DNA from: Candidatus Terryibacteriota bacterium
GTDB lineage: Bacteria; Patescibacteriota; Minisyncoccia; UBA9983
Assembly: GCA_016208535.1 (NCBI GenBank)
Contig: JACQXW010000020.1
Span: forward strand, 1-33,051
DNA length: 33,051 bases
Direction of reading: 5' to 3'
In this document: one piece after another, positions 5,174 through 33,051 of the stretch
Position numbering within the stretch: position 1 is the first letter of the stretch
Layout of the letters: every line of letters starts with the position of its first letter
Notes under the pieces: model-generated
The model's input: the letters and a program-made list of their open reading frames with translations, nothing else
What the model was told of the DNA's origin: nothing
The model's database searches: none
Translations under genes and position numbers: made by a program

Positions 5174-6499
5174 ATGCGAAAAATAAACCCCGTTAGAAGT
5201 AGTCAATCAAAGATTGGCGCCGAAATGTCAAAGACATTTCGGACTTCTAACGGGGTAAAGGAAAAAGCCCATCGCCTCCTCCGCTGGAGCGAAAAATACT
5301 TCAAAACCGACATGGTCTACCTCGCCCATGGCGGCTTCTGGCTGACCCTGGGGCAGATATTTTCCGCCCTAATAAGTCTTGGTCTTTCCATTGCTTATGC
5401 CAATCTCTTAACCCAGCAGACATTCGGAACTTATAAATATATTTTATCCGCCTATGGAATTATTTCTTTATTTGTAATACCAGGACTTTCCTCTGCAGTC
5501 ACCCGTTCTGTCAGCAGAGGATTTGAAGGATCGATAAAAGAAGGGTTTAAAAAGAAAATAAAATGGGGAACAATCGCCGGCATCGCCAGTTTTCTTATAA
5601 GCATCTATTATCTTCTGAATAATAATTTAATTCTGTCTATCGGGTTTTTAACCATCGGCTTATTTCTCCCATTAATGGAGTCTTTCGGCCTTTACTCCAG
5701 TTTTCTGGAAGGGAAAAAACTTTTTAAAGAAAGGGTTTTATATGAAATAGGATTAAATTTAATATTTGCGGCCGCAATACTGCTGACTATTTTCCTGACA
5801 AAAAATCTGTTTATAATCTTGGCTGTTTATTTTATATCAAATATTACAGGCAGAATAATATTTTATTTCTTAACTGTAAAGAAATTTAAAACAAACAATC
5901 TGGCTGACGAAGAAATGGATAGTTACGGCAGATCATTAAGTTTTTTTCAGATAGTTTCCAATGCAAGCCAATATTTGGACAAAATTCTTTTATTCACCAT
6001 GCTGGGCGCGCCCCAGGTGGCAATCTTCACTTTTGCCAGCGCCCTGCCGGACAGGATAAAATATCTGTTCAGATTCACCGGCACCATCTCGTTCCCGAAA
6101 TTCGCCGGCCGGCCGGCTGAAGAAATCAAAAAAAATCTGCCGAAAAAATTACTCCTGCTCGGCCTGATTATTTCTTTTGCGATAGTCGCCTATATCCTTG
6201 CTGCCCCCCTTATCTTTAAATACATCTTTCCGCAATATAAATCAGCCGTATTTCTCTCGCAGATAATAAGCCTTACCTCCATCTACGCCATCACCTATCC
6301 GATCGGCTCCTATCTCTCCGCCCATAAAAAAGTGAGGGAATTATTTATGATTTCCGGTTCCAGTTTTTTATTGGGATTAATTTGCCTGCTCGTCTTTATA
6401 CCCTTCTACGGAATCTGGGGGGCGGTCATCGGCGCCGCCGCCAACCGCCTCACAATCATCACCACTTCGTTTTATTTTTTAAAGAAAATAAAAGATTAA
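5174..6499 (+). CDS. Polysaccharide flippase (Wzx/MOP superfamily)
   Basis: The 441-residue protein is strongly hydrophobic, with about 12-14 predicted membrane segments starting at GGFWLTLGQIFSALISLGLSIAYANLL. This matches the length and organisation of PST/MATE-type Wzx flippases, which move lipid-linked sugar repeat units across the inner membrane. It opens the polysaccharide cluster and is convergent with the methyltransferase gene 3 bp downstream. The N-terminus is unusual: residues 5-28 (NPVRSSQSK... to TSNGV) are encoded by an inserted CCCGTTAG palindrome, and the usual flippase N-terminus seems to begin near AHRLLRWSEKYFKTDM. Translation from 5174 includes the insert. A later start inside the insert (ATG 5225) is possible. 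Confidence 0.85.
   Translation: MRKINPVRSSQSKIGAEMSKTFRTSNGVKEKAHRLLRWSEKYFKTDMVYLAHGGFWLTLGQIFSALISLGLSIAYANLLTQQTFGTYKYILSAYGIISLFVIPGLSSAVTRSVSRGFEGSIKEGFKKKIKWGTIAGIASFLISIYYLLNNNLILSIGFLTIGLFLPLMESFGLYSSFLEGKKLFKERVLYEIGLNLIFAAAILLTIFLTKNLFIILAVYFISNITGRIIFYFLTVKKFKTNNLADEEMDSYGRSLSFFQIVSNASQYLDKILLFTMLGAPQVAIFTFASALPDRIKYLFRFTGTISFPKFAGRPAEEIKKNLPKKLLLLGLIISFAIVAYILAAPLIFKYIFPQYKSAVFLSQIISLTSIYAITYPIGSYLSAHKKVRELFMISGSSFLLGLICLLVFIPFYGIWGAVIGAAANRLTIITTSFYFLKKIKD
5187..5256. repeat. Palindromic element, CCCGTTAG type, translated in frame at the flippase N-terminus
   Basis: ACCCCGTTAGAAGT (5187-5200) pairs perfectly with ACTTCTAACGGGGT (5243-5256). A second nested stem, CCGAAATGTC/GACATTTCGG, lies at 5220-5242. 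The element is flanked by TAAA (5184-5187 and 5256-5259). It carries no stop in the flippase frame and adds an NPVR...SNGV peptide. Confidence 0.8.
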
Positions 6500-12629: not shown

Positions 12630-13661
12630 TCATAATGCTTTTTCCCAACTTTCTTTATATAACCTCAAAGTTTCCTCTTTGTTTGGTAATTTTTCTATTG
12701 TGCTCCGCGCCCTTGCTCCCAAGTTCTTTCTTAAATCATCGTCTTCCATTACTTTCAGCATTGCTTCCGCCAATTTTTTAGAATCGCTCACGGGAATAAC
12801 GATTCCGCTCTCGTTATTTTTTATAATCTCTCCAGCGCACCCCACATCAGTCATAATTATCGGCAAACCATAACTTGCCGCCTCAATAACCGCCATTCCC
12901 CATCCCTCATAATCAGAAGTCAACAAAAACGCGTCCGCCTCTTGGTAAAATTTTGAAACATCCTCCTGCCAGCCAAAAAGTTTTATATTATCTTGTAATT
13001 TGTAATTAGTAATTAGTAATTCGTAATTTTTTCTCTCCGGCCCTTCGCCGACAATCCATAACTCCAGTTGTAAGTTGTTGGTTGTAAGTTGTTTGTTAAT
13101 TATCTCCCCCATCGCCTCTATCTGCATCTTTATATTCTTCACCACTACCAACCTTCCCACCGTCAAAAAAACAAACTTGTTAATTTGTTTCGGATTTCGG
13201 ATTTCGGATTTCGTGCTTATCTCTACATATATCGGCACCACCGTAATCTTCCCCTCACCAACCCCGAATTCCTCAACCAATTGCCTTTTTAATCTTTGAC
13301 TCACCACCCTTATTGAATCTGCCCGCGGAATCACGAACTTCGCAAGCAGTTTTCTGATACCGCGATATTTTTCAAACCCGTGAATCTGTAAATTAAGCCC
13401 GATGCCGAACCTTCTCGCCAAAAACCACCCCAAAAAAGCCAAGTAATACGCGTCCTGAACGGTGATAACATCATATTTTTCTTTTTTTAATATCTTTTTG
13501 GATTGAAAAAAAATCCTGATCAACCCGATTATTTTATTTTTTGAATCAGGAACAACCACATCGTATTGCTCAACGATTTTTTTATATTCGCTTATTCTTT
13601 TGGACAAGTTGGAATTTTTATCCAAAGCCGATCTGTCCAACCCCAAACTTAAAATCCTCAT
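12630..13661 (-). CDS. GT4-family glycosyltransferase with short repeat-encoded loops
   Basis: The 343-residue protein contains VFLTVGRLVVVKNIKMQIEAM, LWIVGEGPE and LTSDYEGWGMAVIEAASYGLPIIMTD, a full GT4 donor domain with E-x7-E. Three surface-loop segments (KSEIRNPK, KQLTTNNLQ and NYELLITNYKLQ) are encoded by short tandem DNA repeats at 13191-13211, 13067-13094 and 12994-13028. These look like microsatellite expansions accepted in frame. Its ATG (13659-13661) abuts the CCCGTTAG inverted repeat of a GIY-YIG element that has been inserted between this gene and the upstream radical SAM gene, perhaps separating it from its original promoter. The function is sugar transfer in polysaccharide synthesis. 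Confidence 0.87.
   Translation of the reverse strand: MRILSLGLDRSALDKNSNLSKRISEYKKIVEQYDVVVPDSKNKIIGLIRIFFQSKKILKKEKYDVITVQDAYYLAFLGWFLARRFGIGLNLQIHGFEKYRGIRKLLAKFVIPRADSIRVVSQRLKRQLVEEFGVGEGKITVVPIYVEISTKSEIRNPKQINKFVFLTVGRLVVVKNIKMQIEAMGEIINKQLTTNNLQLELWIVGEGPERKNYELLITNYKLQDNIKLFGWQEDVSKFYQEADAFLLTSDYEGWGMAVIEAASYGLPIIMTDVGCAGEIIKNNESGIVIPVSDSKKLAEAMLKVMEDDDLRKNLGARARSTIEKLPNKEETLRLYKESWEKAL
12994..13028. repeat. Five tandem 7-bp units (NGTAATT) inside the GT4 gene
   Basis: Units TGTAATT, TGTAATT, AGTAATT, AGTAATT and CGTAATT follow one another directly. On the coding (minus) strand they encode NYELLITNYKLQ, since three 7-mers make 21 bp, or seven codons. Confidence 0.85.
13067..13094. 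repeat. 14-bp direct repeat, two copies, inside the GT4 gene
   Basis: GTTGTAAGTTGTTG is followed directly by GTTGTAAGTTGTTT, with one mismatch. It encodes KQLTTNNLQ on the minus strand. Confidence 0.85.
13191..13211. repeat. Three tandem 7-bp units (CGGATTT) inside the GT4 gene
   Basis: CGGATTT occurs three times in a row and encodes KSEIRNPK on the minus strand just before the conserved VFLTVGRL segment. Confidence 0.85.
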
Positions 13662-13973
13662 CCCGTTAGAGACAGGAAACGCTTTAATCTGTTTTTGATA
13701 TAGCGCTTACCCATGCCTGATTTTAAATATTTTTCTCTCGACCTTGTGTCTTCTTCATTTAAACATGTTCACCACGTTAGAAAATATTATTTTCTAACGT
13801 GGCAAGTAATATATTAAATTCCATGGACCCTTATTTTTTGTCCAAGTTGATTTTCCTTCATTGTGCTGATTAAAGCGTTTCCGTAGATTATTTGTGCTTC
13901 CAGTATACCATTTCCCGTCTTTCTTGCTTCTTATCACATATGCGTAAAACATAAGGTTGGGGTCTCTAACGGG
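13662..13973. mobile_element. GIY-YIG-carrying palindromic element, inactivated copy
   Basis: CCCGTTAGAGAC (13662-13673) and GTCTCTAACGGG (13962-13973) form a perfect 12-bp terminal inverted repeat around the GIY-YIG pseudogene. The flanks are CCTCAT (13656-13661) and ACTCAT (13974-13979), five of six identical, as expected for a target-site duplication. The insertion separates the radical SAM stop from the start of the next glycosyltransferase gene. The duplicated CTCAT contains the ATG (minus strand) on both sides. Confidence 0.7.
13772..13802. repeat. 31-bp perfect palindrome nested in the GIY-YIG gene
   Basis: CCACGTTAGAAAAT (13772-13785), loop ATT, then ATTTTCTAACGTGG (13789-13802). The ends resemble the CCCGTTAG family with CACG in place of CCCG. 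It introduces a TAG into the nuclease frame. Confidence 0.85.
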
Positions 13974-13982
13974 ACTCATAAT

Positions 13983-16393: not shown

Positions 16394-16407
16394 ATTTATG
16401 ATATAAT

Positions 16408-16467
16408 CCCGTTAGAAATCTATTAATAATATATTAGCCATAGTTTTGCTAAAAAATTTCTAACGGG
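16408..16467. repeat. Palindromic element, CCCGTTAG type, with 7-bp flanking direct repeat
   Basis: CCCGTTAGAAAT (16408-16419) and ATTTCTAACGGG (16456-16467) are perfect inverted repeats around an AT-rich centre. ATATAAT occurs immediately on both sides (16401-16407 and 16468-16474). This is the best target-site-duplication signature in the window. The duplicated sequence contains TATAAT. Confidence 0.8.
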
Positions 16468-16468
16468 A

Positions 16469-16481: not shown

Positions 16482-17297
16482 ATGAATACTACAAATTATC
16501 GCGATTTTTCCATTTATTTGGTTAAAGAGGCAGGAGAAAAACTTAAAAAAACTAGAAATAAAAAAATTGAAGTATCTTTTAAAGGAGAAGACACAAAAGA
16601 CCTTATCACAAAAGTTGATATTGAAATCAATGATTTTTTTGTGTCAGAAATTAATAAAACATTTCCAGAACACCAGATATATTCGGAAGAGGAAAAATTT
16701 TTAGACTCTGTTAAAAAAAACCAGTATGAGTGGGCACTTGACCCAATAGACGGCACTTCAAATTTCAGCCGAAACATCCCGCATTTTTCAACTTGCGTCG
16801 GGCTTCTTTATGAAGAAGTTCCCATTGCCGGCGCGGTCTATAATCCCATTACCAATGAATTATTTAGTTTTGAGAAAGGAAAAGGATCGTTTCTTAATGA
16901 TTTGCCGATTCGCGTATCAGATGTCAACAAAGCAATTGACGCTTATGCTATTTTCCGCATCGGACACAAAGAACCTTTGTTTAAATGGGGAGAGAAAGCG
17001 CAAATATCTTTTCTTGCGTCAATGAAAAAAGTAAGCAATTTCGGCTCATCGGCTCTTGATTTATGTTTCTTAGCAGCCGGCCGGGTTGACGCGGTTATTT
17101 ATGGCACTTTTACCACGCGCGATGTCGCTGCGGCAATCGGCATCCTGCGGGAAGCCGGAGGAGAAATTTACACGCCAGCCGGCCAGCCGGCGCCACTATC
17201 AAAAAAACGCCAAACAATCATTGCCGCCGCAAACAGAAAACTTTTTGAAGAAATTCAACCTTTGTCTTACCTAGAACTTTTGCCGCCTTCTTTATAA
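16482..17297 (+). CDS. Inositol-monophosphatase-family phosphatase
   Basis: The 271-residue protein has the family's metal-binding motifs: IYSEEE (Glu of the first motif), WALDPIDGTSNF (the DPIDGT signature) and a later acidic motif in TTRDVAAAIGILREAGGEI. Members are Mg2+-dependent, Li+-sensitive phosphatases acting on inositol phosphate, histidinol phosphate, PAP or sugar bisphosphates. Substrate choice is not readable, but the neighbourhood of sugar genes suggests a sugar phosphate. Length is normal. The 3' end overlaps the convergent kinase-like gene by 31 bp. Expression probably starts at the ATG from the TATAAT 7 bp upstream. Confidence 0.85.
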   Translation: MNTTNYRDFSIYLVKEAGEKLKKTRNKKIEVSFKGEDTKDLITKVDIEINDFFVSEINKTFPEHQIYSEEEKFLDSVKKNQYEWALDPIDGTSNFSRNIPHFSTCVGLLYEEVPIAGAVYNPITNELFSFEKGKGSFLNDLPIRVSDVNKAIDAYAIFRIGHKEPLFKWGEKAQISFLASMKKVSNFGSSALDLCFLAAGRVDAVIYGTFTTRDVAAAIGILREAGGEIYTPAGQPAPLSKKRQTIIAAANRKLFEEIQPLSYLELLPPSL

Positions 17298-27873: not shown

Positions 27874-29190
27874 TCAATGACTGCGGATGAAAACAAATCC
27901 CACGCCGCTGAAAATTCCCAGGCCGAGGATTATCCAAAGCCATTTTTTCGCGCCCGGAAAATTGTTTTCGGTCGCAGTAATGACACTTGCCCCGTTAGAA
28001 ACATTGTTTCTAACGGGGTTCGCAACTTGATCTTCTGTTGAAGTGGATAAATCAAAACTTTCTGTTTTTACTTCTGATTTTTTTATTTCCACTGGCTTTG
28101 ACTCGACAACGGTTGTCGAGTTTGTATTGGTATTGATATATGAATAAGCCACTGAGCCGTTTGGATATAAAATTTCAATATTTTTATTTATCTCAAGTTT
28201 TGAAATTTCTGCCGGAATAGGTAAAGATGATTTTGCTTTTATTAAAGTTGTTTCCGGAAATCTGAAAGTGACATTATTGCCTCTTAAAAACCAACCTGAA
28301 ATATCCAAGGTGATGCCGGAATCGTTTTGCAGTTTTATAAAATCTTTATTGGCTTGGGAAATTGTCAATTGATTGGGAATGATTTTTACAAGAACAATAT
28401 CAGAGGCAGAATATTCTCCTGAGGAAACATTTAAAACCGCGATGTATTCACTTGGATATTTATAGATATGTTTGACGCTCTTGCCTTCAGCCCTTCCGCC
28501 GTCGCCAAAACTCCAAACATAGCGCGCGTTTTCCAATAGCTCTTTATTCAGCCCGAGCGCTTGTCCGGAAAATATAACATCCGCGCCAGCCACACTGGTT
28601 TTATCCGACCCGGCATTGGCAAAAATCTGCGGCTCAACCGGCCAAGAAGAACTACCTTGATTTACTTGTTCTTCTGAAGATGATTGAGTGTTTTGACTCT
28701 GGTTATTTTGAGCGCCAGGAGTCGGACTTGCCGCAATCCATTGATTATCTATCTTTTGAAGAGAATTGCCATCGCCGTTTGCACCCAAATCTGACGAGTA
28801 AGCAACCTGATCCGCGATAATATCGCCGTTTTTTAACGCCAAAGTTTCACCTGTATTGCTAAAAGAAGACCAACTGCTGTCAAAAATAATCCCCTGGAAT
28901 CCCGGCCAATCATTTAAGAATTTTGCAGGGTCGCTGACAATCACGGCATAGGCGCCAGCCGGCAAAGTATCCCCGCCCTGATAGGCAGTGAACCCGTGAT
29001 TGGTGTCTGCCTCAAAAAACTTCCAACTTAAAAAATTAACTGTCTCTGTCCCAGAATTAAAAATTTCAATCCACTCTCGGCCAGTATCTAACCCATCTTT
29101 TAAATCATACATTATCTCATTAATAACAACCGCCGCATGAGTGAAAAGAGGAATTATAAATAAAATTAAAATTAATCTGACTACTAACAT
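27874..29190 (-). CDS. Membrane-anchored lamin-tail/PKD surface protein
   Basis: The 438-residue protein starts with a signal peptide (MLVVRLILILFIIPLFTHAA). A lamin-tail domain follows (VVINEIMYDL, REWIEIFNSGTETVNFLSWKF, ISDQVAYSS-like repeat core). A PKD domain comes next (FANAGSDKTSVAGADVIFSG, then YVWSFGDGG and HIYKYPSEYIAVLNV). A second LTD-like stretch (FIKLQNDSGITLDISGWFL) precedes a linker and a C-terminal membrane helix (WLWIILGLGIFSGVGFVFI). It is likely displayed outside the membrane. Within the linker, residues NPVRNNVSNGA are encoded by a 29-bp CCCGTTAG palindrome inserted in frame. It follows the ATPase gene by 12 bp and is probably co-transcribed with it. Confidence 0.82.
   Translation of the reverse strand: MLVVRLILILFIIPLFTHAAVVINEIMYDLKDGLDTGREWIEIFNSGTETVNFLSWKFFEADTNHGFTAYQGGDTLPAGAYAVIVSDPAKFLNDWPGFQGIIFDSSWSSFSNTGETLALKNGDIIADQVAYSSDLGANGDGNSLQKIDNQWIAASPTPGAQNNQSQNTQSSSEEQVNQGSSSWPVEPQIFANAGSDKTSVAGADVIFSGQALGLNKELLENARYVWSFGDGGRAEGKSVKHIYKYPSEYIAVLNVSSGEYSASDIVLVKIIPNQLTISQANKDFIKLQNDSGITLDISGWFLRGNNVTFRFPETTLIKAKSSLPIPAEISKLEINKNIEILYPNGSVAYSYINTNTNSTTVVESKPVEIKKSEVKTESFDLSTSTEDQVANPVRNNVSNGASVITATENNFPGAKKWLWIILGLGIFSGVGFVFIRSH
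27990..28018. repeat. 29-bp palindrome, CCCGTTAG type, coding in frame
   Basis: CCCCGTTAGAAAC (27990-28002), loop ATT, GTTTCTAACGGGG (28006-28018). It is translated on the minus strand as NPVRNNVSNG inside the linker before the membrane helix. No flanking direct repeat is evident. Confidence 0.85.
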
Positions 29191-29202: not shown

Positions 29203-30864
29203 TTACTCAAACTTAATTTTCTCGCCCGGTTTGAGGGTGCCTTTTTTCTCAGTGGAACTCGGCCTTATCACATCGTTCAAAACCTTTCTTAATTCATCTA
29301 TTTTTGGACCGGGTCTTTTATTCTCCAGTTCTTTAAGAGAAATTGGTTTTTGAGGGGGCGGCTGAAACCCCGTCTGTCTCCGGTGAATCTTGCAAAAAGT
29401 GGGTCTGATGCCGTCGGGTTTAAAGGGAACATAGGTTTTTTTCCCGCACACCGCGCAGATTGCCTCGTAAAGTTCCGGCTGAGGCTCAAAACGCTCTTTT
29501 TGAACTCCCATATGAGGAATTGACCTTTTGATGCCAGTGATGCCGGCAGCACTCGCAGCACTCAAAGCACCTAAAGGAGCGACCGGTTTATGCCATTTGA
29601 CAATTTTTTCTTCAATTTCTGTTTTTGCCGTGGCGTATTTTTCTCTTGAGGTCTCAATAATTTTTTCGGCAAAAGATGGACCCTTGACTACCATTGGCGA
29701 AAGAGTGGTTGCGGAAAAGGGCCTGGAGGCAACGCCGTCAATCATCAATTTCAAATAGATATTGGCAAAACCGAGATTGACAATATCTTGAACGTAAAAT
29801 TCCGGAGCAAATTCTTTTTCTATCTCCTCAGCGTCAGCCGCACCCACCCTGAAAGCAATCAGCGTGCCCACATTGCCAAAAACCGCGTCCCGCACTTTCT
29901 CGTCCATTTGCATAATATACTGATGGGCCAAAACAAGATTGAGCCGGTATTTTCTCGCCTCTGACAAAATATCCTTGAATGATTCTGTGGCAAAGTTCTG
30001 AAATTCATCGACATAAAGATAAAAATCCGACCGCTCCTCCATCGGCACATCAACTCTGCTCATGGCAGCCAGATAAATTTTGGTGATGAGCATGGCGCCG
30101 ATGAGCCGCGAATTTTCCTCGCCGATTCTTCCCTTGGAAAGATTCATGATGAAAATTTTCTTCTGGTCCATTATGTCGCGGATGTCAAAGGCGGATTTTG
30201 GCTGGCCGATGATGTTTCTTACCAAGGGATTGGAGATAAACTGGCCAACCTTGTTTTGAATGGCCGCTCCTGCCTCGGTCATGTAACGGTCGGTGTATTT
30301 TGCGAATTCATCGGTCCAAAAGGCCTTGATCACAGGATCGGTGATTTTGGAAACCACTTCCTTCCGGTAATCCTTGTCGGAAATCATCCGGTTTATGCCC
30401 AAGAGCGTTGATTCCGGATATTCCAAAAGCGCCAAGATGCAGTTGTTTAAAATATATTCCATTCGCGGGGACCAGACATCAGGCCAGATTTTTTTGAACA
30501 CACCCAGGAGGCCGTTGGCAATGAGATGGCGCTGAGTGGGGTCGACGTTTTCCATCACATTAAAGGCAATGGGCCAGTCAATGTCATGGGGAGCGAAATA
30601 AAGCACGTCGTCAATGCGATTCTCGGGAATAAAATTGAGCATTTTTTCGGCAAATTCTCCGTGCGGGTCGACAATGCCCACGCCCTCGCCGTTAAGAATG
30701 TCCTGAATGGCCATATTCTCCAGCAGAGTGGTCTTGCCCATGCCGGTCTTGCCGATGATATACATGTGCTTGGTCCTGTCCTGCCGCTTGACGCCAAACT
30801 TCTTCCTTTCATTCCTGAAATTCGCCTCAGCAAAATAAGTGATATTGTTGGATTTTTCAGCCAT
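29203..30864 (-). CDS. VirD4/TraG- or HerA-like ATPase with C-terminal zinc ribbon
   Basis: The 553-residue protein has Walker A GKTGMGKTT at residues 38-46, followed by GVGIVDPHGEFAEKML. Walker B is FYLYVDEFQNFA, then the sensor-like LVLAHQYIMQM. These are hallmarks of type IV secretion coupling-protein-like ATPases widespread in CPR genomes. A Cys4-type ribbon (CAVCGKK, then FCKIH) lies near the C-terminus. No N-terminal membrane helix is visible, unlike classical VirD4, so a HerA-like soluble DNA-pumping role is also possible. The ATG (30862-30864) touches the inverted repeat of the adjacent GIY-YIG element, which separates it from any upstream promoter. Confidence 0.85.
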   Translation of the reverse strand: MAEKSNNITYFAEANFRNERKKFGVKRQDRTKHMYIIGKTGMGKTTLLENMAIQDILNGEGVGIVDPHGEFAEKMLNFIPENRIDDVLYFAPHDIDWPIAFNVMENVDPTQRHLIANGLLGVFKKIWPDVWSPRMEYILNNCILALLEYPESTLLGINRMISDKDYRKEVVSKITDPVIKAFWTDEFAKYTDRYMTEAGAAIQNKVGQFISNPLVRNIIGQPKSAFDIRDIMDQKKIFIMNLSKGRIGEENSRLIGAMLITKIYLAAMSRVDVPMEERSDFYLYVDEFQNFATESFKDILSEARKYRLNLVLAHQYIMQMDEKVRDAVFGNVGTLIAFRVGAADAEEIEKEFAPEFYVQDIVNLGFANIYLKLMIDGVASRPFSATTLSPMVVKGPSFAEKIIETSREKYATAKTEIEEKIVKWHKPVAPLGALSAASAAGITGIKRSIPHMGVQKERFEPQPELYEAICAVCGKKTYVPFKPDGIRPTFCKIHRRQTGFQPPPQKPISLKELENKRPGPKIDELRKVLNDVIRPSSTEKKGTLKPGEKIKFE

Positions 30865-31163
30865 CCCGGTTAGTACAAATTCGAATTATTCTTATAATAA
30901 CTCTTCAACCTTTTTGCTAAAAATCTACGCCCGCCAGTGACTTTAAAATACTCCTCGCGCCTTTTGGCGTCCTCTTGGCTTAAACAAGCTTCATAATACA
31001 CGAGTTTTAAGGGCGTTCTGTATTTTGTGGAAATATTTTTACCCGAATTATGTTCTTCTAATCTTCTTCTTAAATTATTGGTATAACCAATATACTGCCT
31101 TTTGTCTTTTAAGCTTTGCAGTACATATACATAGAAGAACACATTCGAATTTGTCCTACCGGG
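30865..31163. mobile_element. Intact GIY-YIG-carrying palindromic element
   Basis: The left end starts CCCGGTTAGTACAAATTC (30865) and continues into GAAT. The right end, read from 31163 on the minus strand, starts CCCGGTAGGACAAATTC and continues GAAT. The two agree over about 21 bp with one gap and one mismatch. They surround the complete GIY-YIG gene almost exactly. CAT flanks both sides (30862-30864 and 31164-31166), so an ATG occurs at each edge on the minus strand. The ends resemble CCCGTTAG of the short palindromes but with an extra G. Confidence 0.7.
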
Positions 31164-31171: not shown

Positions 31172-32206
31172 TTAATTATACAATAAAACAGATTTCTTTA
31201 ACATATTAACTTTCAATTTATAACTATTCCCCCACCCAATCAATCCTAAATATGATTGGATAGTTTCTGCTTTGCCTCCATTCTTTTTGATATTTCTAAA
31301 CATTTTTCTCTTTGTTGTGGTTCTCAAAATTCTATGGTTAGGAAAATTTACCCAACCAAGAAAATCAACGCCAGAAGATATGGTTTTTATGGAAACCTTT
31401 TTAGAATGCAGTTCCAGCTTAAGTTCTTTGTTTAGGAATTCCTTAACAGGCGGAATTAATTTTTGCGCGTAATCTTTACTTTCCGAAAAAATAACAAAAT
31501 CGTCGCAATATCTGATGTAATGTTTTACTTTTAATTTGTGTTTTGCAAACTGGTCAAATTTATTCATGTAGATATTCACAAAAAGCTGGCTGGTAAGATT
31601 GCCAAGCGGCAGACCAATGCCTTTTTGATTTGATGAAAAGCTTCCGATAATGTTTTTGAGAAGTTTTATCAAGTTTTCGTCTTCAATATGTTCGTGCAGA
31701 ATATTGATTAAAATTTCGTGGTCAATGTTGGCAAAAAACTTCCTGATGTCGCATTTCAAAATCCAGCAAGTTTTTGTGTTGTTTTTGCCAACTTTGTAAG
31801 AAAAATTCCTGAATCTGTTGATTGCCTTGTGCGTCCCCTTTCCTAATCGACACGAGAAAGAATCCGCTATAAATTTCCTATCAAAAAACGGATATAAAAT
31901 CCTATAAATCGCGCGATGCAATAATCTGTCCCGCACGCTCGCTTTATGGATATCTCTCGGTTTCGGGTCGTTTATCTTGAACGCCTCGTATCCGCCGTGA
32001 ATGTAAGTTCGGCTGGTTAGGTCGCTATGAAGAGTGAGAATGTTGTCCATAAAATTAAGTGAAAACTCCGCCACATCTTTCCGTTTTCTCTTTCCACGCA
32101 AAAATTCCTGCCAGGAAACAAGTAAGTTTTCCACGGATATGATATTATTGAAGATATGACGAAGCCTTCCTCTCTCTCTCTCTCTCTCTCTCGATAACGC
32201 ATCCAT
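31172..32206 (-). CDS. DGR-type reverse transcriptase
   Basis: The 344-residue protein has fingers-palm RT motifs: CDIRKFFANIDHE at 152-164 with the first catalytic Asp, GLPLGNLTSQLFVNIY at 198-213, and the active site YCDD at 233-236, followed by VDFLGWVNF. LGNLTSQ, in place of the QGxxxSP of other RTs, is typical of DGR enzymes, which copy the template repeat with errors at adenines. About 18 residues at the N-terminus (MDALSRERERERGR) are extra relative to DGR RTs and are encoded by a (GA)11 tract. Conserved sequence starts near LRHIFNNIISVENLLVSW. The ATG at 32206 has no good Shine-Dalgarno. A second ATG at 32202 is in another frame. Confidence 0.92.
   Translation of the reverse strand: MDALSRERERERGRLRHIFNNIISVENLLVSWQEFLRGKRKRKDVAEFSLNFMDNILTLHSDLTSRTYIHGGYEAFKINDPKPRDIHKASVRDRLLHRAIYRILYPFFDRKFIADSFSCRLGKGTHKAINRFRNFSYKVGKNNTKTCWILKCDIRKFFANIDHEILINILHEHIEDENLIKLLKNIIGSFSSNQKGIGLPLGNLTSQLFVNIYMNKFDQFAKHKLKVKHYIRYCDDFVIFSESKDYAQKLIPPVKEFLNKELKLELHSKKVSIKTISSGVDFLGWVNFPNHRILRTTTKRKMFRNIKKNGGKAETIQSYLGLIGWGNSYKLKVNMLKKSVLLYN
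31175..31180 (-). promoter_or_regulatory. -10 box for the GIY-YIG gene
   Basis: TATAAT (minus strand) lies 8 bp before the ATG at 31166. It is formed by the last codons of the reverse transcriptase gene (TTG TAT AAT TAA). Confidence 0.45.
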
Positions 32207-32444
32207 CCTTCAACGAATCAAAGAGGGATATTTGATGTGGATTAGTATTATCCAACATATACCCAGAAGCAGCCGTTATACAATCGGCGCGCGAATTGAA
32301 AATAAATTCCTTGACCTTCTTGAATTATCATATACCGCTTATTTTACAGAAAAAGAAAATAAAAACGACAAAATATCGAAATGCATGCATTGTCAACGGA
32401 ATTCGCGTTCACATTCCAGCCGTCGTCGTTCCAGTTGCAGTTGA
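32156..32444 (+). pseudogene. Avd-like DGR accessory protein, truncated and out of frame
   Basis: After the TC tract, one plus-strand frame reads DNASILQRIKEGYLMW, IIQHIPRSSRYTIGARIEN and FLDLLELSYTAYFTEKEN, closely resembling the helical Avd/four-helix-bundle proteins that accompany DGRs (IPR...RY.LG.RIE). The ATG at 32156 (MTKPSSLSLS) is in the wrong frame with 11 TC units and would be in frame with 12. Alternative starts are TTG 32232 and ATG 32235. After KISK (about 32379) the homology ends and the frame continues as the antisense of the template repeat to a stop at 32442-32444. The last helices are therefore missing. It is either a remnant or a phase-variable short form. Confidence 0.6.
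32171..32192. repeat. (TC)11 dinucleotide repeat overlapping the RT and Avd 5' ends
   Basis: Eleven uninterrupted TC units, preceded by a C. On the minus strand they encode RERERER in the reverse transcriptase N-terminus; on the plus strand they encode SLSLSL of the Avd-like frame. Such tracts are prone to slippage. Confidence 0.95.
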
Positions 32445-32464
32445 CCATCCACAGCACATCATCG
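32386..32464 (-). repeat. DGR template repeat (TR)
   Basis: The segment aligns without gaps to 32837-32915 (offset 451). Of 79 positions, 11 differ, and all 11 are adenines on the minus strand of this copy (21 adenines in all); none of the 58 other bases differs. As coding sequence it would read DDVLWMVNCNWNDDGWNVNANSV with AAC/AAT codons at the variable sites, the usual TR design. Beyond 32464 similarity falls away with non-adenine mismatches; on the other side it ends abruptly at about 32385 near ATGCATGCAT. Confidence 0.92.
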
Positions 32465-32707
32465 CTATCGTGCAAAAAACCATCCGCACCACCGCCCTTT
32501 GAATACTCTAAGGGTTGAATCTTACTTGGGACATAGAAGTCCGCCAGTTTTTTGCACCAATTCCTGTATTTTTTGGAGATTATTTCTGCACTCTCACGCA
32601 AGCCATAACCGGCGCGACTCTCGCGAAAAATATCCCGAAATCACGGCGCAAAAGCCGTAACCGTTGCGTTCTTATGATTCCAATTTTATTTTATCATTTT
32701 TCAAGAT
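32465..32707. other. TR-upstream region with fragmentary target-like frame
   Basis: On the minus strand a frame from 32601 (MRESAEIISKKYRNWCKKL, then VPSKIQPLEYSKGGGADGFL) runs straight into the template repeat, as if it came from an old target gene, but it lacks a recognisable start signal. No plus-strand gene is seen here. It is probably the 5' part of the TR-containing RNA. Confidence 0.4.
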
Positions 32708-32791: not shown

Positions 32792-33051
32792 TCAGGAATT
32801 GCAAGAAAAGACAAGATAGCCAGCGTTCCAGTCAAGCGCATAGTCAACGGAATTCGCGAACACAATCCAGCCGTCGTCGTGCCAGAAGCAGTAGACCATC
32901 CACAGCACAGCAACGAAATCGCGAACATAGAAGATGTTGGCGTAGCCGTTGGCAAGCAGTGTTCCGGTTTCACCGTTCGGCTGTTTCTCCATAAGGGCGA
33001 ACATTGCGGAAAGCGTTGTTTCCACCTTGTCTTCGCCGCCAAGCTCGTTGA
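32792..33051 (-). CDS. DGR target protein, C-terminal part with variable region (runs off the right edge)
   Basis: The frame enters from the right edge (NELGGEDKVETTLSAMFALMEKQ) with no start inside the window; a GTG at 33025 is internal. It ends FVAVLWMVYCFWHDDGWIVF, then ANSVDYALDWNAGYLVFSCNS, stop at 32792-32794. The Trp/Gly/Asp-rich tail fits C-type-lectin-like variable domains of DGR targets. At the sites where the template repeat has Asn codons, this gene has Tyr, Phe, His, Ile, Phe and Tyr. It probably makes a variable ligand-binding surface protein. The N-terminus, which would show export or anchoring, is outside the window. Confidence 0.85.
   Translation of the reverse strand, partial: NELGGEDKVETTLSAMFALMEKQPNGETGTLLANGYANIFYVRDFVAVLWMVYCFWHDDGWIVFANSVDYALDWNAGYLVFSCNS
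32837..32915 (-). repeat. DGR variable repeat (VR)
   Basis: Counterpart of the template repeat at 32386-32464. On the coding strand the changes are A to T (8), A to C (2) and A to G (1), all at template adenines. It lies near the 3' end of the target gene, as in known DGRs. Confidence 0.92.

Follow-up and report, generated by a model that had tools for sequence, protein, structure and literature searches.

A palindrome read in frame at the start of a flippase gene, a probable short derivative of very small GIY-YIG-bearing mobile elements

The start of a flippase gene in the window (the whole 33,051-nucleotide stretch of DNA that was analysed) contains a palindrome that is an in-frame insertion by a small mobile DNA element, accompanied by a 4-bp target-site duplication (Table 1). 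The preferred explanation, to which we assign a probability of about three in four, is that very small mobile elements bearing a GIY-YIG nuclease gave rise to the palindrome as a MITE-like, non-autonomous derivative, with the nuclease as the presumptive mover.

The original prediction had the palindrome translated as the N-terminus of the flippase, from a start upstream of it that was suggested by a TATAAA motif 8 bp before the ATG at 5174. The first point is confirmed and the second supported; the TATAAA is present at the stated distance and is a putative promoter. The reading frame is open through the complete palindrome (CCCCGTTAGAAGTAGTCAATCAAAGATTGGCGCCGAAATGTCAAAGACATTTCGGACTTCTAACGGGG, with the termini CCCCGTTAGAA...TTCTAACGGGG) and gives the peptide listed in Table 1. 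The 68-bp element and one TAAA together amount to 72 bp, i.e. 24 codons placed after codon 4 of the flippase, and their removal leaves the N-terminus MRKIKEKAHRLLRWSEKY, in agreement with relatives such as MEKLKNKIYNLLKWSEQ. Protein N-termini were used for this empty-site evidence because the relatives are too distant for a comparison at the DNA level. Among nine relatives no homologue was found to share the N-terminus without a palindrome: the alignment starts at query residue 21 or later, and the NPVR..SNGV peptide is absent. As single-stranded DNA the element folds into a three-way junction (-26 kcal/mol, z -10.7), and none of 200 shuffles folded as well.

Table 1. Positions of the palindromic and GIY-YIG-bearing elements in the window and of the genes that they adjoin
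Feature	Position	Strand	Remarks
Flippase ORF, Polysacc_synt PF01943	5174..6499	+	codons 5-28 derived from palindromic element
Target-site duplication, left copy TAAA	5184..5187	+	abuts element
68-bp non-autonomous palindromic element	5188..5255	+	outer pair C..G, two inner hairpins; translation NPVRSSQSKIGAEMSKTFRTSNGV
Target-site duplication, right copy TAAA	5256..5259	+	abuts element
Glycosyltransferase (MRILSLGLDRS), start rebuilt by 314-bp element	12630..13661	-	
314-bp GIY-YIG-bearing copy, outer pair T..A	13661..13974	-	target-site duplication TGAG on coding strand
Nested 31-bp palindrome CCACGTTAGAA...TTCTAACGTGG inside 314-bp copy	13772..13802	.	
62-bp palindromic copy, outer pair T..A	16407..16468	.	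upstream of inositol-monophosphatase-like gene 16482-17297
Lamin-tail/PKD protein, host of 29-bp copy	27874..29190	-	
29-bp perfect palindrome, same family, NPVRNNVSNGA (residues 391-401)	27990..28018	-	no perfect duplication left
ATPase-like gene (MAEKSNN...), product by sequence appearance	29203..30864	-	start = right copy of duplicated ATG
Divergent intact GIY-YIG element, imperfect TIRs CCCGGTAGGACAAATTCGAAT / ATTCGAATTTGTACTAACCGGG	30868..31163	-	boundaries approximate to base or two
GIY-YIG ORF of divergent element, PF01541, 98 aa	30870..31166	-	start ATG = left copy of host ATG

The palindrome belongs to a dispersed family. In the 518,588-bp genome the pattern HCCCGTTAGA occurs 55 times, far above chance, and its reversed form twice; 54 of the 55 sites pair up into 27 elements of 29-314 bp. 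The short palindromes possess terminal inverted repeats, with ends that read (C/T)CCCGTTAG..CTAACGGG(G/A). Of 69 palindromes drawn from this genome and a further ten, 30 have a perfect direct repeat of 4 bp just outside (C/T)CCCG..CGGG(G/A) (30/48 without genome G018), the flippase copy among them, compared with 0-1 at neighbouring offsets and 3.7% in cross-pairs. The repeat is found at exactly one offset and marks insertion with target-site duplication. The copies of G018 have common flanks beyond the palindrome and lack the duplication. Palindromes that differ between genomes (CCCCGTTAGAT.. and CCCTGTTAAAT..) are likewise found without duplication between similar flanks, AAACCTTA on the left and TGCTCA on the right (loci L176-L194 in G018, L350, L357, L359 and L362); these common flanks are perhaps a shared target motif or part of a larger repeat.

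Eighteen copies are listed within ORFs of at least 100 aa, and 15 of them are read in the NPVR/SNG frame; for all 15 the element length plus 4 is a multiple of three. The remaining three are read in another open frame (PLE..LTG), one being the same element counted on both strands. The host genes include those for FtsK (inserted between its motor domain and its gamma domain), RelA/SpoT (upstream of the HD domain), SecA, a glycosyltransferase, an O-antigen ligase-like protein and a XerD-type recombinase. The SecA of G002 carries an insert of 11 residues relative to solved SecA structures, exactly (29+4)/3, and its empty site is seen at the nucleotide level in the congener G008, which reads LRDNLAYDISQISQ where G002 reads LRDNLVYPVRNEISNGAYDISQISQ. 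The peptide recurs in unrelated ORFs of the same genome. One recurrence had been foreseen, namely that in the lamin-tail protein, where the 29-bp copy uses the same frame. The view that the element contributes NPVR..SNGV needs an amendment at the ends of the peptide, which is laid out as (..AA)C CCC GTT AGA ... TCT AAC GGG G(TN..). The outer N and V derive partly from the duplication, as the duplicated targets (TAAA, TTTA, TGAA, TCAA and others) supply the flanking letters.

An ordinary structural motif of local origin, such as a terminator or attenuator with a merely coincidental in-frame peptide, has a negligible probability. GC-rich hairpins near gene starts can indeed act as terminators, but the duplications, the in-frame insertion in SecA, FtsK and RelA, and the conserved ends at unrelated loci speak against it, and the empty sites refute it. 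A self-splicing RNA was also rejected: the window has no Rfam match, and the frame is open through the listed genic copies.

The palindromes could also be REP sequences mobilised by RAYT (Y1) transposases. Their palindromic form and moderate copy number would suit such an origin, and five Y1_Tnp genes are present in this genome (G000). However, palindromes of other kinds flank the Y1 genes of G000 and of the relatives examined, a CCCGTTAG element lies near just one of 17 Y1 loci examined (L342), and the genomes G017, G019, G028 and G033 contain the palindromes but no Y1 match. Target duplications, moreover, are not expected of HUH transposition. REP/RAYT systems have been divided into two super-families tagged by a GTAG/CGTC tetranucleotide (PMC3733652), and this tetranucleotide is absent from the palindrome ends described above. 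The RAYT/REP origin is therefore mostly refuted, the Y1 genes being paired with other palindromes, and we consider it very improbable. The lamin-tail gene contains a second palindrome (ACTCGACAACGGTTGTCGAGT, 28101-28121), identical to one beside a Y1 (RAYT) gene on contig 16, and is thus host to both a REP-like and a GIY-type palindrome.

The short palindromes contain no transposase gene, and their CCCGTTAGA ends are common to a 280-bp GIY-YIG element. Two 280-bp copies in this genome have an intact 86-aa GIY-YIG ORF that fills the element. Full-length elements measure 268-288 bp, are bounded by the inverted repeats of the palindromes and carry a UPF0213-like GIY-YIG nuclease of 86-95 aa as their sole gene. 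In the window, the 314-bp copy has a GIY-YIG ORF that is broken by the nested palindrome, and the right end of this copy restores the start codon of the glycosyltransferase. The same nested palindrome is present in a second broken copy on contig 28 (G000:C28), which indicates that the element had already been broken when it was copied to a further site. The divergent element lies between two copies of ATG, and a related one is found at the folD start of G002 (L111). The flanks of the 62-bp copy (..GATATAA and TATAATC..) have TATAA in common. The window also holds a diversity-generating retroelement, with a reverse transcriptase (PF00078) at 31172-32206 (minus strand) and an 84-nt template/variable repeat pair (32387-32470 and 32838-32921); read on the minus strand, the 32387-32470 copy has an adenine at 11 of the 12 positions that differ.

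A scan of 84,980 species for CCCGTTAGAG and CTCTAACGGG at a distance of 256-286 bp, without any ORF criterion, returned at least 112 distinct elements, and 111/112 among the matches listed encode GIY-YIG. Perfect 4-bp duplications flank 47/112 among the matches listed, where 16 are expected and the maximum in 5000 shuffles was 26. The other 65 of these 112 full-length CCCGTTAGAG copies among the matches listed have no perfect 4-bp duplication, several showing one of 3 or 5 bp (TGA, TGCAA). Some full-length copies among the matches listed pair TTCA with TAAA, or TTTA with TGAA; recombination between copies is one possibility for such mismatched flanks. The hosts among the matches listed are mostly Patescibacteria, including Saccharibacteria; Omnitrophota, Planctomycetota, Elusimicrobia, Desulfobacteraceae, Syntrophaceae and Thermodesulfovibrionia also occur as bin labels, with contamination possible. 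In an even sample of the phylum, the exact CCCGTTAGAG full-length form was present in 11/380 genomes. Across 37 genomes, short and full-length CCCGTTAG elements co-occur too weakly for this to serve as evidence, with three of the five genomes that have full-length elements also having short ones. Three loci of one Omnitrophota bin (L216, L255 and L278) hold GIY-YIG copies with near-identical flanks, GAAGCCAG on the left and TAAAGGAGG on the right, which suggests that the target is a repeat or that the copies belong to a larger unit present several times. In L219, two GIY-YIG elements (1533-1805 and 2291-2563) bracket 486 bp, with TTTA/TTTA as outer and TTCA/TTCA as inner flanks, an arrangement as in a composite transposon.

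The nuclease ORFs are under purifying selection: 108 of 116 are intact, and the median dN/dS is 0.25. The GIY-YIG residues Y3, Y5, Y16, G18, R26, H30 and E50 are conserved at 94-100%. For the element ORF of L036, GIY-YIG (PF01541) was the sole Pfam match, and the nearest solved protein to the element ORF is 1zg2, UPF0213 BH0048. When single-domain GIY-YIG ORFs of relatives were considered, 51/93 were located inside inverted repeats scoring at least 12, compared with 14/1860 shuffled controls. Subfamilies of the nuclease are associated with distinct repeats (CCCGTTAGAG, CCCTGTNAAATAA, CCCAGTAACAC, CCCGGTAGGACAAATTCRAAT, CCCCCACACC and CCCCTCACC). For a second GIY-YIG family, with CCCTGTNAAAT ends, the matching palindromes predicted from a descent of short palindromes from such elements do exist (32 in 11/93 genomes; none for the control pattern), and these CCCTGT palindromes are mostly without a 4-bp duplication.

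These observations also bear on a different mover. An unrelated transposase, of the host or foreign, could mobilise both the palindromes and the GIY-YIG elements in trans, the GIY-YIG gene being a passenger kept for the translation of the downstream gene. The 4-bp duplications are typical of DDE transposases, GIY-YIG enzymes are nucleases and not known transposases, and the purifying selection on the ORF could result from coupling to essential genes alone. However, copies away from start codons keep the ORF too, and the 111/112 elements among the matches listed, defined by their TIRs, carry GIY-YIG and nothing else. The different TIRs of the different subfamilies fit recognition by the encoded enzyme, and a search that covered the Y1 family revealed no further transposase bearing these ends. 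Such a transposase is regarded as unlikely, and the GIY-YIG nuclease is kept as the candidate mover.

Mobility itself is documented by reciprocal empty sites and by the 3-4 bp duplications that the elements create. A CCCAGT..ACTGGG element at the ruvB start is present in G077, while the site is empty in the congeners G033, G094 and G093, all of which continue across it without interruption (in G033 as ..TTAATATGCTAACA..). Conversely, G033 has the same element (89% identical) at another start codon, where G077 is empty over 749 bp. The filled sites of the pair read TATG-element-TATG, so that G077 and G033 are reciprocally empty and the insertions are accompanied by a duplication. In G094, the start codon that the element occupies in G033 is associated with ~85 additional bp containing an extensive hairpin (L384, ~1903-2017), which may be another small element at the same gene. 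A GIY-YIG protein has been listed among the genes that Patescibacteria donate to others (PMC12455944), and this fits mobility. On vectors, GIY-YIG homologues are rare (1 plasmid and 3 phage records).

Many full-length copies occupy start codons. In 66/112 full-length copies among the matches listed, the right end and its flank restore the ATG at which an ORF of 60 aa or more begins, while a start with such an ORF was found at 3.5% of random positions under a slightly different criterion. For the outer pair T..A, the right flank begins with TG in 70/73 among the matches listed. At least 21 copies are open from the left host ATG through the entire nuclease ORF (typically MNPVRD... or MSPVRD...) to a stop just past the right end; with the T..A outer pair, the nuclease TGA overlaps the rebuilt ATG. 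Other families use ATG followed by CCC..GGG and then (T)ATG, as at ruvB (L106), folD (L111), groES (L133) and hrcA (L144), and CCCGTTAGAG copies are found at the starts of pyrG (L231, L292) and murG (L100, L242), all six names being read from N-terminal sequences. The GIY-YIG elements at the putative pyrG start in two genomes (L231 and L292) may reflect either shared ancestry or independent insertion.

The start-codon location may result from targeting or from survivorship. Under survivorship, a T..A end at ATGN would leave the downstream gene with an ATG, whereas copies placed elsewhere may be lost. T..A palindromes of the short kind are also found away from ATG, and this speaks for survivorship, or for expression needs, as the cause of part of the effect. 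Occupied sites that are mostly of one kind (ATG), together with the homing-endonuclease fold of GIY-YIG, could suggest site-specific homing, in which the nuclease cuts uninterrupted start-codon sites and the element is copied in by double-strand-break repair. The targets, however, are found in unrelated genes (ruvB, folD, groES, pyrG, murG) and have only ~3-4 bases in common, so that repair would lack homologous flanks as a template. Homing, furthermore, is not characterised by inverted repeats and duplications, which makes this explanation highly doubtful.

A mechanism in which the GIY-YIG nuclease is the mover can be proposed. The nuclease would recognise the inverted repeats or the branched structure that they form, would cut element and target with a stagger of ~4 nt, and would mobilise the short derivatives in trans, although joining of DNA ends is not known from GIY-YIG enzymes. 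At the start codons occupied by T..A copies, and by other families such as CCCAGT..ACTGGG, the host ATG on the left leads into the nuclease frame, and the ATG of the host gene is rebuilt from the right end together with the duplication. The host gene would be expressed by termination-reinitiation at the overlapping ATGA, or where the stop precedes the rebuilt ATG by a few bases, and such coupling would also give the host a reason to keep the nuclease ORF. Within genes the short derivatives are tolerated, since their two ends can be read through in the NPVR/SNG frame and, in these copies, the lengths of element and duplication add up to a multiple of three. The original prediction saw a neutral, frame-preserving peptide as the explanation of the spread. 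A tolerated in-frame peptide is supported, but neutrality covers only half of it, because the full-length relatives carry a GIY-YIG gene and many of them sit at start codons. The 280-bp GIY-YIG element is putatively autonomous. That a new class of autonomous bacterial elements is involved, of ~280 bp, with a single-domain GIY-YIG protein as sole enzyme, entering at start codons with coupling and having ORF-less in-frame derivatives in essential genes, is judged fairly probable.

Rickettsia has been known since 2000 to contain in-frame palindromes. These Rickettsia palindromic elements (RPE) and the protein-coding palindromes of Wolbachia are likewise inserted in frame in unrelated, often essential genes, with a tolerated peptide (PMC10969869, PMC2229807). 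RPE measure ~105-150 bp, and the reviews give neither an autonomous partner nor a mobilising enzyme nor a definite target duplication for them (PMC10969869, PMC2229807). The palindromes described here have in common with RPE the in-frame insertion and the frame that is open through the palindrome. They differ in their size (genic copies of 29-68 bp), in the 4-bp duplication, in the full-length GIY-YIG partner that shares their ends and in their hosts, which are mostly Patescibacteria. As ends and duplication length are common to the GIY-YIG-only elements, a candidate enzyme for in-frame palindromes becomes available. Bacterial MITEs (NEMIS/Correia, ERIC, RUP) are similarly short, with inverted repeats, target duplications and no transposase, and are sometimes fused to ORFs (PMC2229807). 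Where known ones have a partner at all, it is an IS transposase (that of IS630-Spn1 for RUP), whereas the partner here is a candidate GIY-YIG nuclease. REP/RAYT systems also combine dispersed palindromes with a small single-gene partner, but RAYT is a HUH (Y1) transposase, and the RAYT genes of this genome use other palindromes.

Single-domain UPF0213/YhbQ-like GIY-YIG proteins (BH0048, PDB 1zg2) have the same domain and size as the element nuclease; no description of them as the gene of a mobile element was found. Free-standing GIY-YIG homing endonucleases and Penelope-like elements are selfish elements that use a GIY-YIG nuclease. The former, however, lack inverted repeats with duplications, the latter encode a reverse transcriptase, and we know of neither at start codons. 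In the full-text literature, with subscription papers and preprints lying outside this scope, neither a GIY-YIG-only inverted-repeat element nor a start-codon-inserting element was found. Insertion at start codons with a rebuilt ATG would be a new harmless lifestyle for selfish DNA in very compact genomes, and such elements would account for some of the numerous GIY-YIG genes of Patescibacteria. Like insertion sequences, the full-length elements have inverted repeats and a target duplication around a single gene. Unlike in insertion sequences, that gene is no DDE, HUH, serine or tyrosine transposase, encoding GIY-YIG in 111/112 among the matches listed. If the nuclease is the transposase, a new enzyme fold would join the transposition catalysts, and the element would, to our knowledge, be the smallest autonomous DNA element in bacteria, below the known insertion sequences.
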